A stretch of 41,770 bases of DNA from Pseudomonadales bacterium (lineage in GTDB: Bacteria; Pseudomonadota; Gammaproteobacteria; Pseudomonadales; Pseudohongiellaceae), in NCBI GenBank assembly GCA_022763285.1, contig JALEHB010000175.1, positions 1 through 41,770 of the forward strand, written 5' to 3'. Shown in pieces: positions 7,181 to 15,527 of this stretch (its first letter is position 1; the number at the start of each line of letters is the position of its first letter). The notes below the pieces were generated by a model. It was not told the origin of the DNA, made no database searches, and worked only from the letters and a program-made list of their open reading frames with translations. The translations under genes were made by a program, and so were the position numbers.

Positions 7181-7203
7181 CATTGATCAAGCTGCAGAGT
7201 TCC

Positions 7204-7944
7204 ATGAAAAACCACTGCCACAGACTGATGCTGTTGATCCTGCTGACTTTGCCCGGGCCGCTGCTGCATGGGGAAGAGGTGCTGGTGGCAGCGGCATCCA
7301 ATTTCACCCGGCCCTTGCAGGAGCTGGCCCGGATGTTCAGGGAGCAAAGCGGCCATGAGTTGCAGCTGGCTTTTGGCTCCTCCGGACGCCTCTATGCCCA
7401 GATACTGAATGGTGCACCCTACCAGGTTTTTCTGTCAGCCGATGAAGAGAAGCCGGACCGGCTTGAAAAGCAGGGGCTGACAGTCCCGGGCTCGCGCATT
7501 ACCTATGCCAGAGGCCGCCTGCTGTTGTGGAGTGCCAGCAGGGCGATCACGGGCCCCGATGTACTTCGGAAGCTGGAGGGCAAACTGGCGCTGGCCAATC
7601 CTGAGCTGGCCCCGTATGGGCGTGCCGCAGAACAGGTGCTGGAGAATCTTGAGCTAAAGCAAGCGACCCAAGCCAGCTGGGTGCTGGGTGAAAACATTGC
7701 CCAGACCTTCCAGTTTGTGGAGACTGGCAATGCCTTGATGGGTTTTGTGGCAGCCTCGCAATTGGCAGGCAGACAAGACCAGGCCAATGCCTGGCCAGTT
7801 GCCAGTAATCTGCACGAGCCAATACGGCAGGATGGGGTCTTGTTGAAACGGGCCGAGAGTTGTGCCGCCTGTGCGGCATTTATGGATTTCCTGCAATCAG
7901 ATCAGGCCCGAAATCTGATTCGGGCCATGGGATACGATCTGTAA
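7204..7944 (+). CDS. modA: Molybdate ABC transporter substrate-binding protein (orphan ModA)
   Basis: About 246 residues from ATG 7204; a TTG at 7183 is in frame, but the signal peptide (MKNHCHRLMLLILLTLPG) starts best at 7204. The mature protein begins VLVAAASNFTRPLQELARMF and continues with LAFGSSGRLYAQI and QVFLSADEEKPDRL, the ModA oxyanion-binding pattern with Ser and Asn ligands in the first loops. Length fits ModA. The upstream Mo-box supports molybdate rather than sulfate or phosphate. No modB or modC follows, because the next gene is convergent only 16 bases away. It must therefore work with a transporter encoded elsewhere, or as a scavenger. ATG 7204 has only a weak ribosome-binding site. 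Confidence 0.9.
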   Translation: MKNHCHRLMLLILLTLPGPLLHGEEVLVAAASNFTRPLQELARMFREQSGHELQLAFGSSGRLYAQILNGAPYQVFLSADEEKPDRLEKQGLTVPGSRITYARGRLLLWSASRAITGPDVLRKLEGKLALANPELAPYGRAAEQVLENLELKQATQASWVLGENIAQTFQFVETGNALMGFVAASQLAGRQDQANAWPVASNLHEPIRQDGVLLKRAESCAACAAFMDFLQSDQARNLIRAMGYDL

Positions 7945-7960: not shown

Positions 7961-8746
7961 TCAGTGCTGATGATTGCCATCATCGCCGCTGCCGTGACCA
8001 CCGCCACCATTGCCACCGCCATGACCTCCGCCACCATTACCGCCGCCGCGGCCTCCGCCACCACCATGGTTCATACCGGAATCAGTGGCAGGCTGACCAC
8101 CGGCCATCATCAAGTGATGGTCGTCATGGTGCTCACCCAGCACCATAAAGCCGAAAAAGCCCAGTGCCCGGATCATAGCTGCGTCATCACCTGCATTGAC
8201 CTGTAGTTCCATGCCATTTCGGGTTTCGGTGCTGGAGATTTCCCAGCCCAGTTCACGTTCGATCTGCAGGGCATGGCTTGGCACCATGCGCTTGATTGCC
8301 GCTACGGTGCGTTCATCCTCGCCGCTGACGGTGAATTCGCTGCCGCCTTCGATATCCCGGGCTTCGGCCTGGGCATAAAGTGCTACCCGATCCATATCCA
8401 CCAGATGCTGCCTGAGTGCATCGATATTGATGCGGCTCCAGTCGGTGTCAGGGCTGGCTTGCAGTTCGCTGATTACAGCGCTGATGACATCCAGGGCACT
8501 TTGGCCCGAGCTGCCGCTGTTATCGCCTCCCATGCCGCCCATATTGCCCGCCATTCTGCGCATGCGGCGCATCATGCCGGAGCCACCACCGCCATCTTCA
8601 TGCTGCATGGCGTCCTGACCTGCCTGGGAGGAATGATCGCTCTGCCCATGGCCGCTATGGTCTTGCTGCCCCATCACAGAAAGTGGGAGTGCCAGCAAGG
8701 CCAGGGCTGTCGCTCGCAGCAGTATGGATTTCGGTGCAATGTTCAT
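7961..8746 (-). CDS. Secreted His/Gly/Met-rich protein, probable metal-binding partner of the multicopper oxidase
   Basis: I do not recognise a named family. The 261-residue protein has a signal peptide (cleavage near residue 26). A His/Met-rich stretch follows (DHSGHGQSDHSS, then MMRRMRRMAGNMGGMGG), then a folded middle region of about 130 residues with HLVDMDRVALYAQ and MVPSHALQIERELGW. The tail alternates Gly repeats with His and ends DDGNHQH. HHDDHH occurs at about 204-209. Clustered His and Met are typical of periplasmic copper binding. AGGAG lies seven bases before ATG 8746. It is divergent from a CueO-like oxidase across about 200 bases, so both may answer to the same signal. The metal role is inferred from composition and context. 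Confidence 0.8.
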   Translation of the reverse strand: MNIAPKSILLRATALALLALPLSVMGQQDHSGHGQSDHSSQAGQDAMQHEDGGGGSGMMRRMRRMAGNMGGMGGDNSGSSGQSALDVISAVISELQASPDTDWSRINIDALRQHLVDMDRVALYAQAEARDIEGGSEFTVSGEDERTVAAIKRMVPSHALQIERELGWEISSTETRNGMELQVNAGDDAAMIRALGFFGFMVLGEHHDDHHLMMAGGQPATDSGMNHGGGGGRGGGNGGGGHGGGNGGGGHGSGDDGNHQH

Positions 8747-8946: not shown

Positions 8947-10449
8947 ATGCTTTCCCGTCGCCGCTTTATACAAAGTTCTGCGCTGGCCGCGCTGCCCGCG
9001 CTGCCCTTTGGCCTGTCCATGCCCCTGTTTGCCCAGTCGGCAGGCAGGCAGACTTTGCAGATCCCCCCCTTGATGGAAGGCAGCAGGCGGGAAGGGGTGG
9101 TCCATTACGATCTGACGGTGCAATCAGGCCAGAGCAATTTTCTGCCGGGCTTGAGTACCGACACAATCGGCTTCAATGGCAGTTTTCTGGGGCCAACCCT
9201 GCGTCTCAAGAATGGCGACGATGTCAGTATCAATATCGATAATCAACTCGATGAAGATACCACGGTGCACTGGCACGGCTTGCACTTGCCGGCTGCGGCC
9301 GACGGCGGTCCTCACCAGGTGATTGAGCCGGGGCGCCGCTGGCAGGCCCAGTTCCAGGTGATTCAGAGAGCCGGGCCATTTTGGTATCACTCCCATCGTA
9401 TCGACCGCACTGGCGAGCAGGTCTACCATGGCATGGCGGGCATGCTGCTGGTGGAAGATGAAGAGAGCCAGGGCCATGAACTTCCTTCTGACTATGGTGT
9501 GGACGATATTCCTCTCATCATCCAGGATCGTGAATTCAATGAGGATGGCAGCTTCAGCTATATCAACTCCCATCAGGACATCATGTTCGGCAAGCACGGC
9601 GATACCATTCTGGTGAATGGCACCGTTGATCCGGTCTTCGTGCCCCGTACCCGCAAGGTCCGGTTCCGGCTGATGAATGCTTCCAATGCTCGGACCTATA
9701 CCCTGGCCTTCAGTGACGGGAGAGCGTTTCAGCAATTGGGCTGTGATGGCGGCTTTCTGGCCCAGCCATTGACTATGACTGAGCTAACCCTGGCCTCTGC
9801 CGAGCGCTGCGAAATCGTTGTGGATTTCAGCGACGGGGCGCCTGTTAATCTGATCAGCAAGCCATTACCGGCCAATTCCCCCTACCGTATGCGCGGCATG
9901 ATGGGGCGTATGCACGGTGCCCTGAGTGACCAGGCATTCCATATCCTGGCCATTGAGCCGCAGTCAAGTCTGCAGACTTCCGCCGCCATTCCTCCGATTC
10001 TGACCGAGGTGCCGGATTATGAAGCAGTCGGTATTGACCGCCAGCGCCGCTTCGAACTGGGTATGGTGATGGGTATGGGCATGAGAGGTGGGCGTGGCGG
10101 TGGCAACGCCCAGCAATTCTCCATCAATGGTCAGAGCATGCATATGGTCAATATCAATGAGCGGGTACCCCTTGGCTCTACCGAAATCTGGGAGATTCAC
10201 AACGGCACGATGATGATGCATCCCTTTCATATTCATCATGGGCAGTTTCAGGTGAAGTCCCGCAATGGTCGGCCGCCCCATGCCCATGAGCGGGCATTCA
10301 AGGACACCGTGAAAGTAGCGCCGGGGGAGACGGTGCAGGTAGTCATGGAATTTCTCCACTATGCCGATCCGGAACATGCCTATATGTACCACTGCCATAT
10401 TCTCGAGCACGAGGATAATGGCATGATGGGACAGTTCGTGGTCGAATAG
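8947..10449 (+). CDS. CueO-like multicopper oxidase, Tat-exported
   Basis: The 500-residue protein has a Tat signal (SRRRFIQ, residues 3-9, cleavage near AQS). All four multicopper oxidase copper motifs are present: HWHGLH (108-113), WYHSH (146-150), HPFHIH (425-430) and YHCHILEHEDNGMM (481-494), giving T1, T2 and T3 ligands including Cys483. Met-rich segments (MRGMMGRMHG and MVMGMGMRGGRGGG) resemble the Met-rich insert over the CueO substrate site that favours Cu(I). The likely function is periplasmic oxidation of Cu(I) to Cu(II) and copper tolerance. AGGAG is eight bases before ATG 8947. It is divergent from the His-rich secreted protein and ends 21 bases from a convergent gene. Confidence 0.93.
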   Translation: MLSRRRFIQSSALAALPALPFGLSMPLFAQSAGRQTLQIPPLMEGSRREGVVHYDLTVQSGQSNFLPGLSTDTIGFNGSFLGPTLRLKNGDDVSINIDNQLDEDTTVHWHGLHLPAAADGGPHQVIEPGRRWQAQFQVIQRAGPFWYHSHRIDRTGEQVYHGMAGMLLVEDEESQGHELPSDYGVDDIPLIIQDREFNEDGSFSYINSHQDIMFGKHGDTILVNGTVDPVFVPRTRKVRFRLMNASNARTYTLAFSDGRAFQQLGCDGGFLAQPLTMTELTLASAERCEIVVDFSDGAPVNLISKPLPANSPYRMRGMMGRMHGALSDQAFHILAIEPQSSLQTSAAIPPILTEVPDYEAVGIDRQRRFELGMVMGMGMRGGRGGGNAQQFSINGQSMHMVNINERVPLGSTEIWEIHNGTMMMHPFHIHHGQFQVKSRNGRPPHAHERAFKDTVKVAPGETVQVVMEFLHYADPEHAYMYHCHILEHEDNGMMGQFVVE

Positions 10450-10470: not shown

Positions 10471-10782
10471 TCAGCCGCCGGAGATGGCACCGATGATCAT
10501 CAGGGGCTGCTCGCCCAGGCGAATGACCTCGGGTAATGCACTGTCCAGTGCCTGCAGGGAAACATCTTCCCCGTCGGCGTAGAAACGCACTTTCGGCTGG
10601 CGCTTGCCGCTGTGGTGGTCGATGATCGTGCCCGCCAGCATCGGATAGCGTTTTTCCAGGGCACGCACGATGCTTAACACCGAAACCCTGCCCTGTACCT
10701 GCAATCCCACTTCCTTGTCACAGTGCGCCAGAGTTTGCAGATGAAAGGGAATCTGTACCCTGATCTGGTGGCTGTCAGTCAA
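10471..10782 (-). CDS. MoaD/ThiS-like ubiquitin-fold protein with C-terminal Gly-Gly
   Basis: A 103-residue product from TTG 10782. No ATG or GTG fits, and the TTG overlaps the upstream gene's TGA by eight bases, implying translational coupling; GGTGGAAG upstream may serve as ribosome-binding site. The sequence follows the beta-grasp pattern: a first strand ([13 protein letters not shown]), [17 protein letters not shown], and [10 protein letters not shown] at the end. The terminal SGG is what sulfur-carrier and ubiquitin-like proteins need for adenylation and thiocarboxylation or conjugation. The frame is open further upstream, but that part is a shadow of the neighbouring gene. Its E1-like enzyme and role are not in the window. 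A true molybdopterin-synthase subunit would be expected near moaE, which is absent. Confidence 0.8.
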
Positions 10783-11962
10783 TGGTTTGCACTTCCACCG
10801 AAAGCACCGGTGGCAGATCCCTGACAATGGCCTGCCAGTTGTCGCCACTGTCAGCAGAGCAGTACACCTGGCCGCCAGTGGTGCCAAAATAGATGCCACA
10901 GGATTCGAGCGAGTCCACGCACATGGCATCACGCAGCACGTTTACATAACAGTCTTTCTGCGGCAAACCTTTGCTCAGCGCTTCCCAGTCATTGCCACCG
11001 CCCCGGGAGCGGTAGACCCGCAGTTTGCCTTCCGGCGGATAATGCAATGAATCGCTGGTAATGGGAATGACATAGATGGTTTCCGGTTCATGGGCATGCA
11101 CGGCAATGGGGAAGCCGAAATCCGAGGGCAGGTCGCCACTGACTTCTGTCCAGCTTTCGCCGCCATTTTCGCTGCGCATGACATCCCAGTGCTTTTGCAT
11201 ATACAAGACATTGGGATTGGCCGGGTGCATGTCGATGCGATGCACGCAATGGCCAATCTCGGCTGTGGGGTCGGGAATATAATCCGACACCAGCCCATTA
11301 TTGATAGGGCGCCAGGTTTCGCCAGCATCATCGCTGCGGAAGGCGCCGGCGGCAGAGATCGCCACATATATGCGTTGTTTGTCCGTAGGGTCCAGCAAGA
11401 TGGTGTGCAGACACATGCCGCCGGCTCCCGGCGCCCAGTCCTTGCCGCTGCCATGACCACGCAGGCCTGGCATTTCCTGCCAGGTTTTGGCGCCATCGCT
11501 AGAGCGGAACAGGGCCGCGTCTTCAACTCCGGCATAGACAGTGTCCGGGTCATCCAGAGCAGGTTCCAGATGCCAGACCCGCTTGAACTCCCAGGGATGG
11601 GCGCTACCGTCATACCACTGGTGGGTGGTCAGGGGTTTGCCGGTCTCCTCGGAAGTGTCGTAGACAAACTTGTTGCTTTCCCCTTTGGGCATGCCCTGCT
11701 CGTCTGTGACGGGTTCGCCTTTGGGTGTGCCCGGTTGCTCCCAGGTCTTGCCGCCATCGCTGGAGCGTTGAATGATCTGGCCAAACCAGTCTGAAGTTTG
11801 TGAGGCATAGAGCCGGTCCGGATCCACCGGGGAGCCTTTCATATGATAGACCTCCCAGCCGGCAAAATGGGGGCCGTCCACTTCCCATCTCTTGCGGGTC
11901 GAGTCGGAGTGAAGAATAAAAGCGCCTTTGCGTGTGCCTACCAGTACGCGTACTTGTGTCAT
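10775..11962 (-). CDS. Asp-box (BNR) repeat beta-propeller protein, sialidase-like fold, cytoplasmic
   Basis: A 395-residue protein with no signal peptide, starting [17 protein letters not shown]. At least five Asp-box motifs are visible: [31 protein letters not shown] and SADSGDNW. They mark a BNR/sialidase-type propeller. Catalytic sialidase features (FRIP Arg, Tyr/Glu pair) are not evident, so a glycosidase activity should not be assumed. The 3' end overlaps the start of the MoaD-like gene by eight bases, so the two are co-translated. Function is unknown. Vps10-like or photosystem-assembly-like scaffolds share this fold, and a binding or scaffold role for the small ubiquitin-like protein is a reasonable guess. 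Confidence 0.85.
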
Positions 11963-12122: not shown

Positions 12123-12731
12123 ATGGCCCTGAGAACGACCTGGTGGCTGCTGGCAATTCTGGTCTGCGGCATCGCCGCCAATGCCCTGATACAGGCCTTC
12201 TCGCCGGCCAGTCGGGGTGATCTGGTGCTGGATATGCTGGCCTATTCTTCGGTGGGCAGTCTGCTGCATTTTCTGGCCGGTGCCACGGTCATCCTTGCTG
12301 GCATCCTGCAATTCAACCAGACCCTGAGAAAAAGGCATTTGCACTGGCATCGCCTGATCGGACGGGTGTATGTGTTCGGTGTTGCTCTGGGTGGGGTGGC
12401 AGGTTTGTATATGGCTTTTAACGCCAGTGGCGGTCTGGTGGCCCGGGTGGGCTTTGCCATGCTGGCGCTATGCTGGTTGTTTGCTACCGGCCGGGCATTT
12501 CTGGAGATTCGTGCCGGCAATGTCGCCGCCCACCGGGCCTGGATGATGCGCAGCTATGCCCTGACTCTGGCGGCTCTCACCTTGCGGCTGTATATCCCTT
12601 TGTTTCTGATTGCCGGAGTTTCCTTCGAGGCCGCCTATCCGGTGATAGCCTGGCTTTGCTGGGTGCCCAATATACTACTGGTGGAATGGTTGCTGCTGGC
12701 TTCTGCCCCCAAAACACTGGCTAGCCAATAG
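12123..12731 (+). CDS. DUF2306-like integral membrane protein
   Basis: The 202-residue protein has about six hydrophobic segments and the layout of DUF2306/YozB-like membrane proteins. HLHWHRLIGRVYVFG and AHRAWMMRSYALTLAALTLR carry conserved His and Arg residues. Excellent ribosome-binding site: GGAGGAATT directly before ATG 12123. Function of the family is unknown; the conserved membrane histidines could bind haem or metal, but I cannot show this. It is divergent from the Asp-box gene and convergent with the TonB receptor gene, 11 bases away. Confidence 0.8.
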   Translation: MALRTTWWLLAILVCGIAANALIQAFSPASRGDLVLDMLAYSSVGSLLHFLAGATVILAGILQFNQTLRKRHLHWHRLIGRVYVFGVALGGVAGLYMAFNASGGLVARVGFAMLALCWLFATGRAFLEIRAGNVAAHRAWMMRSYALTLAALTLRLYIPLFLIAGVSFEAAYPVIAWLCWVPNILLVEWLLLASAPKTLASQ

Positions 12732-14987: not shown

Positions 14988-15350
14988 CTATCGCGGCAGC
15001 TTGATGCCGGTGACGTGCTTGACGCTCCAGTTGGCCAATTCCCTGACCACCGGCAACAAGTCTTCACCGGCCGGGGTGAGGTGATATTCGTACCGGGGTG
15101 GTTTGTCCTGGTAGGAAACCTTTCTGATCAGACCATTCTCATGCAGGGATTTCAGACGTGCTGCCAGTACATTACTGGGTATGCCTTCTTTGGCCTGCTG
15201 GAAATCCTTGTTGCGATGACGATTGAAGATGCCAATATCGCGGATGATCAACAGACTCCATTTGTCGCCCACCAGATCCAGTGTGGTGGCAACCGGGCAG
15301 GGCGAGCGCTTTGCGGTGGAGCGGGGCAGTTTGCTGGCGGTCTTGTTCAT
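14988..15350 (-). CDS. HxlR family transcriptional regulator
   Basis: 120 residues from ATG 15350; the open frame continues upstream, but the family alignment begins just after this ATG. The diagnostic pattern is present: CPVATTLDLVGDKWSLLIIRDI, recognition-helix region IPSNVLAARLKSLHENGLI, and wing PPRYEYHLTPAGEDLLPVV. Cys18 corresponds to the conserved N-terminal Cys that acts as a redox or electrophile sensor in YodB and HypR, so quinone or aldehyde sensing is possible. It precedes the TonB receptor gene by 118 bases. The ribosome-binding site is weak. Confidence 0.9.
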   Translation of the reverse strand: MNKTASKLPRSTAKRSPCPVATTLDLVGDKWSLLIIRDIGIFNRHRNKDFQQAKEGIPSNVLAARLKSLHENGLIRKVSYQDKPPRYEYHLTPAGEDLLPVVRELANWSVKHVTGIKLPR

Positions 15351-15365
15351 GCAGGGCAGCTTAGA

Positions 15366-15398
15366 CCAGTGACTTGTCTGCTGCAAGTGATTCACTGG
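15366..15398. promoter_or_regulatory. Nested inverted repeats upstream of the HxlR gene
   Basis: CCAGTGA (15366-15372) and TCACTGG (15392-15398) form an outer inverted repeat. ACTTG (15372-15376) and CAAGT (15384-15388) form an inner one. The word GTGACTTG is the complement of CAAGTCAC at 14919. The site starts 16 bases beyond the HxlR ATG and fits autoregulation. It also lies 130 bases before the divergent fusion gene. Confidence 0.45.
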
Positions 15399-15527
15399 CA
15401 GTCGTTGCTTATTCCTGCTTGACGGTTTTTTACAGTGCTGCGTTTCGTTTCGTCGCAAGCCGGTGGTAGCGGTCTGGCAGTTGGCGCATAATGACCGGAT
15501 CGATATCGATAATGTGGGGGAATAATA

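Follow-up and report, generated by a model that had tools for sequence, protein, structure and literature searches.

A ubiquitin-like protein with a Gly-Gly tail and its Asp-box propeller neighbor: a widespread bacterial gene pair and candidate sulfur-carrier module

The question raised by this locus is why a small ubiquitin-like protein (UbL) should be encoded together with an Asp-box propeller. Both genes lie in a stretch of 41,770 nucleotides from a Pseudomonadales bacterium (contig JALEHB010000175.1; the whole stretch is hereafter called the window). As an initial annotation had pointed out, and as can be read directly from the window sequence, the UbL ends in SGG and starts at a TTG codon that overlaps the propeller stop codon by eight bases (TTGACTGA; Table 1). 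We find that the pair is a widespread module that has been annotated piecemeal. Of the explanations weighed below, we tentatively favor the one in which the UbL is a sulfur carrier activated by an E1-like enzyme and the propeller is its acceptor, a reading that we regard as possible rather than probable.

Conservation of the gene pair

The best 80 of at least 565 UbL relatives in GTDB genomes, hence those nearest to the window, were taken as close loci, and in 79 of them a propeller gene lies upstream on the same strand; the pair is thus conserved. The exception (L083) has what appear by eye to be the last 15 propeller codons directly before the UbL. The propellers of these loci are 64–86% identical to that of the window (mean 73%) and the UbLs 46–65%. 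The distance from the propeller end to the UbL is at most 30 nucleotides in 58 of the 79 loci, at most 200 in 74, and 459–1872 in five. Record titles include Acidobacteria, Bacteroidetes, Planctomycetes, Armatimonadetes, Chloroflexi, Nitrospirae, Verrucomicrobia, Actinoplanes and Proteobacteria, among others. In the phylum of the window itself (Pseudomonadota, judging by relatives) the pair is uncommon: of 398 genomes only the source genome has it, and within the genus it is present in 3 of 36 other genomes, many of them incomplete. At L080 one propeller is followed by two tandem UbL copies (7371-7670 and 8001-8300).

For a sample drawn without regard to the pair we used 199 genomes of Acidobacteriota, the phylum to which G452 belongs (source of L014, record title Acidobacteria). 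A UbL profile gave 30 matches in 28 of these genomes, and propeller sequence lies directly upstream of 27 of them, with only the propeller end present in L134 and L138 (contig edges or cut). As for the three others, in G545 the propeller lies 1.75 kb upstream with a single open reading frame (ORF) between, in G485 the UbL is decayed with two stops and no propeller was found, and in G527 the UbL match itself is weak (E 9e-6). A propeller profile scored above 430 bits in 26 genomes (the next score being 358), all 26 of which have the UbL; two further genomes have a UbL, G485 and G538, and of the propeller only the last 32 residues are present in G538. Nine candidates were scored per genome with the propeller profile and 24 with the UbL profile, and some members may be missed. 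Over 96 pairs the mean identity is higher for the propeller (75%) than for the UbL (62%), and a Mantel test of UbL against propeller indicated a shared history (r 0.54, 0 of 2000 permutations), a result that shared species history alone could explain and that carries little weight.

The pairing extends to remote relatives. A further 42 of the 199 Acidobacteriota genomes have lower-scoring propellers only, and 20 such loci, with propellers 31–44% identical to that of the window, formed our distant set. Twelve of the 20 have a separate same-strand ORF that ends in SGG or in SGG plus 1–2 residues, six downstream of the propeller (two of them 0.8–0.9 kb off) and six directly upstream; at E ≤ 0.001, Pfam ThiS matches 11 of the 12 and the SAMP1 model all 12. 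Four of 16 pattern matches beside distant propellers (L200, L205 twice and L213) were excluded by eye as wrong-frame, and no UbL was found at seven others of the 20 loci. On the minus strand of L200, downstream of the propeller, a UbL domain ending in VSGG continues without a stop into a GTPase that resembles TypA by eye, either as a real fusion or through a lost stop. L202 and L208 have a protein of about 230 amino acids with a signal-peptide-like start (by eye) after the propeller, which in L208 stands between propeller and UbL. When the UbL profile of the window family was aligned with that of the distant relatives, hhalign gave 97.3% (E 2e-11), the match extending over nearly the full length. 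Distant propellers were also found in 15 plasmid records, and in nine of them, eight from Burkholderiales (two being near-identical Cupriavidus strains) and one from Pseudomonas, the UbL lies directly upstream; Cupriavidus metallidurans L220 and L232 have an identical UbL. A tblastn search of plasmids with the window UbL found none. That the pairing survives both deep divergence and reversal of the gene order argues for a functional bond.

Some proteins join the two partners. In L074 the propeller end and the UbL share a single reading frame, and with L074 as the query 34 proteins among the 120 matches listed cover at least 84% of it, thus parts of both UbL and propeller. Sixteen fusion proteins were inspected, eight with a clean junction and eight with a frameshifted stretch before it. 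The initial annotation had concluded from the overlap that the two proteins act together in a fixed ratio. Their genomic association is well supported, leaving sulfur transfer to be weighed against conjugation and the role of the propeller along with it. A fixed ratio does not follow: an overlap does not set stoichiometry, close spacing is frequent without being universal, and the gene order can be reversed in distant relatives.

The Gly-Gly tail and E1-like neighbors

The assignment of the UbL to the beta-grasp proteins is borne out by its modeled fold, which is closest to SAMP1 and also close to CysO; the last block of the model has a predicted local distance difference test score (pLDDT) of 51, as for a flexible C-terminal tail. 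All 25 UbL homologues of the first search end in ISGG or IAGG. For a larger set we added 29 loci to the 80 close ones, giving 109, or 108 distinct loci since L052 and L175 are the same stretch. Gly-Gly is conserved in the UbLs beside propellers at all 108 and forms the very C-terminal end at 102; the remaining six (L014, L018, L052, L082, L179 and L186) carry 1–8 further residues and would need trimming by a protease, if the tail is activated. The window UbL alone had no match in a Pfam scan, its best hit in a sequence-profile search of the PDB was not significant (2m19, E 0.27), and against the SAMP1 equivalog NF041918 it scored 21.9 bits, below the curated cut-off of 60. In its beta-grasp fold, Gly-Gly tail and sequence homology, the UbL agrees with the sulfur-carrier superfamily (MoaD/ThiS/CysO/SAMP1).

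E1-like genes, the neighbors that the initial annotation had suggested looking for, are indeed present but only in a minority, at 18 of the 108 distinct loci by tblastn. Fourteen are on the same strand as the pair and four on the opposite strand (L020, L043, L057 and L189). Eleven of the 14 are of the MoeB/ThiF type and lie directly upstream, all in records titled Proteobacteria, and the other three resemble a rhodanese-bearing E1 over the full length (L030 itself and L055, downstream; L184, upstream). All adjacent E1 genes lie within about 1.5 kb of the pair, with none in the other 954 kb of flank; loci that are related to one another should not be counted as independent draws. Clustering of ORFs gave 12 E1 loci, and tblastn added L019, L026, L055 and L073, probably hidden by wrong-frame ORFs, and the new L184 and L189. 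In a scan of five E1s, ThiF occurs without rhodanese in two, which are of the first type, and together with it in the other three. The E1s retain the nucleotide-loop glycines, four zinc-type cysteines and C194, whose roles we assume to be those known from MoeB. The source genome (G000) has one ThiF-family protein above cut-off, and each of 10 tested carrier genomes has one.

Nearest neighbors were counted for 88 upstream and 92 downstream genes after those of at least 900 amino acids had been excluded (3 of 91 and 1 of 93, respectively). ThiF is the commonest upstream family (10 of 88) and is among the commonest downstream (3 of 92); the next upstream families are HxlR (5 of 88), YCII (4 of 88) and 3-dmu-9_3-mt (4 of 88). 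By ORF clustering, with families checked on single examples, the pair lies near YCII, 3-dmu-9_3-mt and extracytoplasmic function (ECF) sigma genes at 13, 7 and 9 of 83 loci; such clusters occur at L009, L029, L032, L039, L061, L062 and others. The distant pair of L229, a Pseudomonas plasmid record, adjoins YciI and VOC family genes, as many close pairs do, and in the window an HxlR-type regulator (Pfam E 1e-20) lies about 3 kb from the pair at 14988-15458 (minus strand). The recurring HxlR, YCII, VOC-type and ECF sigma contexts resemble genes of stress response or detoxification and would suit a sulfur carrier as well as a protein modifier.

A protein modifier is what the UbL would be if, like SAMP1, it became covalently linked to proteins, with the propeller as the main target or as a receptor presenting targets and the E1 as the sole activating enzyme. 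SAMP1, the nearest fold, is an archaeal modifier that forms conjugates, according to the available part of PMC4443979; the propeller is the constant partner of the UbL, and the recurring upstream neighbors (HxlR, YCII and 3-dmu-9_3-mt) are of a stress type and not biosynthetic. However, no E2, E3 or JAB family occurs twice or more among the 88 upstream and 92 downstream nearest neighbors, a count in which single occurrences are covered for the 25 listed families only, and the fold is not decisive, as SAMP1-like proteins may do both jobs. We consider conjugation unlikely.

The propeller as a possible acceptor

The window propeller matches only the Sortilin-Vps10, BNR, PSII_BNR and BNR_6 repeats in Pfam, and its nearest solved structure by sequence is 3b7f (E 1.3e-71). 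For the modeled relative L041, 3b7f ranks first in Foldseek (32% identical to L041), followed by GH74 xyloglucanases. With its Asp-box repeats and this similarity the window protein is a propeller of the 3b7f type. A PHROGs search gave one weak match to a family of unknown function, which we read as a shared repeat and dropped. Across 32 propellers (7 close and 25 distant), W130, H186, H241, Q256, H258, F282-G283-F284, P300 and R344 are without exception, whereas neighbors of the P279 type do show exceptions. The invariant residues come up again at the beginning of one repeat after another, a position that lines the central face of propellers. We would place them on that face, and they are likely to form an active or binding site.

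Such a site could serve a function of the propeller's own, as an enzyme or ligand binder that the UbL regulates or merely accompanies. The public names 'exo-alpha-sialidase' and 'sialidase family protein', the GH74 enzymes among the Foldseek matches and the retention of the invariant residues in some UbL-less distant propellers would suit this explanation. Against this, every one of the 26 genomes with a close propeller also has the UbL, no signal peptide was seen by eye, and the Pfam scan of the propeller gave no sialidase or GH74 family, so that the public 'sialidase' name is probably misleading. An independent function of this kind seems improbable to us.

The structural matches suggest another role, in which the propeller would be a partner without catalytic function, holding the UbL together with its tail as a chaperone or as a platform for storage or protection, while the acceptor enzyme is encoded elsewhere. 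The Foldseek matches of L041 in the PDB include propeller-peptide complexes, namely Ycf48 with a D1 peptide, sortilin with a peptide and DAIP with a C-terminal fragment of thermolysin, and the accessible part of PMC10403576 describes seven-bladed Ycf48 as an assembly factor around which the C-terminal tail of D1 wraps. Reversible gene order and fusions also suit a simple binding pair. Against the Ycf48 model PRK13684 the window propeller scored 28.9 bits, below the curated cut-off of 326. The greater conservation of the propeller than of the UbL and an invariant His/Trp/Arg set that resembles an active site speak against mere holding, which we judge to be rather unlikely as well.

The sulfur-carrier reading starts from two coupled and conserved genes, a Gly-Gly tail, an occasional adjacent E1 and conserved propeller residues, together with a modeled fold like that of sulfur carriers; from these we infer activation, a thiocarboxylate, docking, the position of the pocket, sulfur transfer and a substrate. 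An E1-like enzyme, which would be MoeB in the source genome and the product of the neighboring gene in some relatives, would adenylate the C-terminal glycine of the UbL, leading to a thiocarboxylate. The charged UbL would then dock onto the propeller, its flexible Gly-Gly tail reaching a pocket on the propeller face formed by the invariant W130, H186, H241, H258 and R344, where the sulfur would be passed to a small molecule or a protein. The propeller, in this scheme not a sialidase, would take the place that MoaE, ThiG, CysM or BexX has in known pathways. We know of no other propeller with such thiocarboxylated-tail chemistry. That 3b7f-type propellers of many phyla include a new class of sulfur-carrier-dependent enzymes, whose invariant His/Trp/Arg pocket accepts the tail of a thiocarboxylated UbL, is conceivable but doubtful.

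Several observations weigh against the sulfur-carrier reading. No E1 gene lies in the flank examined at 91 of the 109 loci or in the window itself, and an adjacent one is also absent from all 20 loci of the distant Acidobacteriota set. Among the 88 upstream and 92 downstream nearest neighbors no sulfur-pathway family occurs twice, which sets the pair apart from most known sulfur carriers. The UbL is not an obligatory partner for every 3b7f-type propeller, being absent beside 6 of the 15 distant propellers in plasmid records (three from Rhodobacterales and three from Actinomycetota), and the UbL-less L221, L222 and L224 retain every invariant residue, so that their presence is not tied to the UbL and they may have another function. 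Most of the fusions are represented by one contig each, and single-base insertions or deletions at the overlap may account for part or all of the set. An AlphaFold tandem model could not be interpreted for docking (predicted template modeling score, pTM, 0.72; no inter-domain error shown). As a separate observation, the propeller of L222 (Rhodobacter sp. CZR27) lies beside the ergothioneine genes egtB and egtD, a possible sulfur link or chance.

The locus and its relation to known systems

In the window the two genes stand alone, flanked upstream by a divergent gene for a DUF2306 protein (12123-12731) and downstream by a convergent one for a multicopper oxidase (8947-10449). A promoter and terminator scan gave a single match of each kind, not above shuffled sequence. 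As initially stated, no moaE is seen by eye among the window ORFs; moaD-moaE is found elsewhere in the source genome (L001, moaE by eye). Adjoining the multicopper oxidase gene, 7961-8746 (minus strand) encodes a protein that looks secreted, has a high content of His, Met and Gly, lacks a match in Pfam and is perhaps a metal binder, and 7183-7944 (plus strand) encodes a periplasmic solute-binding protein (SBP_bac_11, ModA-like by eye). A molybdenum link through the latter was dropped, as two genes intervene and no such gene recurs at other loci.

Table 1. Features of the UbL and propeller genes in the window
Feature	Positions	Strand	Remarks
UbL, 103 amino acids	10471..10782	minus	TTG start; C terminus GAISGG; stop codon 10471-10473
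Codons for the UbL terminal Gly-Gly	10474..10479	minus	
Asp-box propeller, 395 amino acids	10775..11962	minus	nearest solved structure 3b7f, seven-bladed
Eight-base overlap, UbL start and propeller stop	10775..10782	minus	
Asp-box SSDGGKTW, residues 67-74, strict	11741..11764	minus	
Asp-box-like SSDGAKTW, residues 154-161, degenerate	11480..11503	minus	
Asp-box SDDAGETW, residues 210-217, strict	11312..11335	minus	
Asp-box-like SENGGESW, residues 264-271, degenerate	11150..11173	minus	
Asp-box-like SRGGGNDW, residues 319-326, degenerate	10985..11008	minus	
Asp-box SADSGDNW, residues 369-376, strict	10835..10858	minus	
Stretch with invariant propeller residues	10931..11575	minus	comparison of 32 relatives

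Among known systems, CysO of Mycobacterium and Amycolatopsis (with CysM or BexX) is a sulfur carrier that is 24–27% identical to the UbL over the structural alignment, although its partner is not a propeller. SAMP1 of Haloferax differs in that the window UbL falls short of its model cut-off, and to our knowledge it has no propeller partner. MoaD-MoaE and ThiS-ThiG are alike in having a UbL encoded beside its acceptor with the E1 (MoeB/ThiF) often elsewhere; however, the source genome has both separately, and here the partner is a propeller. The ThiS/MoaD-JAB-E1 operons are comparable as sporadic operons of UbL and E1, with or without rhodanese, in a 2006 survey of UbL operons by Iyer et al. 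(PMC1779556), the available part of which makes no mention of a propeller, sialidase, BNR, Asp-box, WD40 or glycosyl hydrolase. The Ralstonia eutropha Asp-box propeller 3b7f, the nearest structure by sequence and fold, has its function listed as 'Not known' in the accessible part of PMC2716378, and in its relatives from Burkholderiales a UbL gene lies immediately upstream.

Public annotation calls the pair 'MoaD/ThiS family protein' with 'exo-alpha-sialidase' or 'hypothetical protein'. In a literature search by title and the start of the abstract, with subscription papers outside its scope, no paper on the pair was found among the matches listed, so that one may have been missed. The description of the module as undescribed thus holds for the literature searched but not for the genes, which already carry generic annotation. 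The carrier type and its activation are known, and the propeller partner is new.

What a sulfur carrier does is usually understood from the enzyme that serves as its acceptor. The pair represents a large and widespread branch of UbLs with a near-constant partner of as yet unassigned function, and the question is directly testable, with 3b7f as a solved relative and the distant pair present in cultured and workable strains such as Cupriavidus metallidurans CH34. An answer might put many 'sialidase' annotations right and could show how sulfur transfer is related to protein modification in bacteria.
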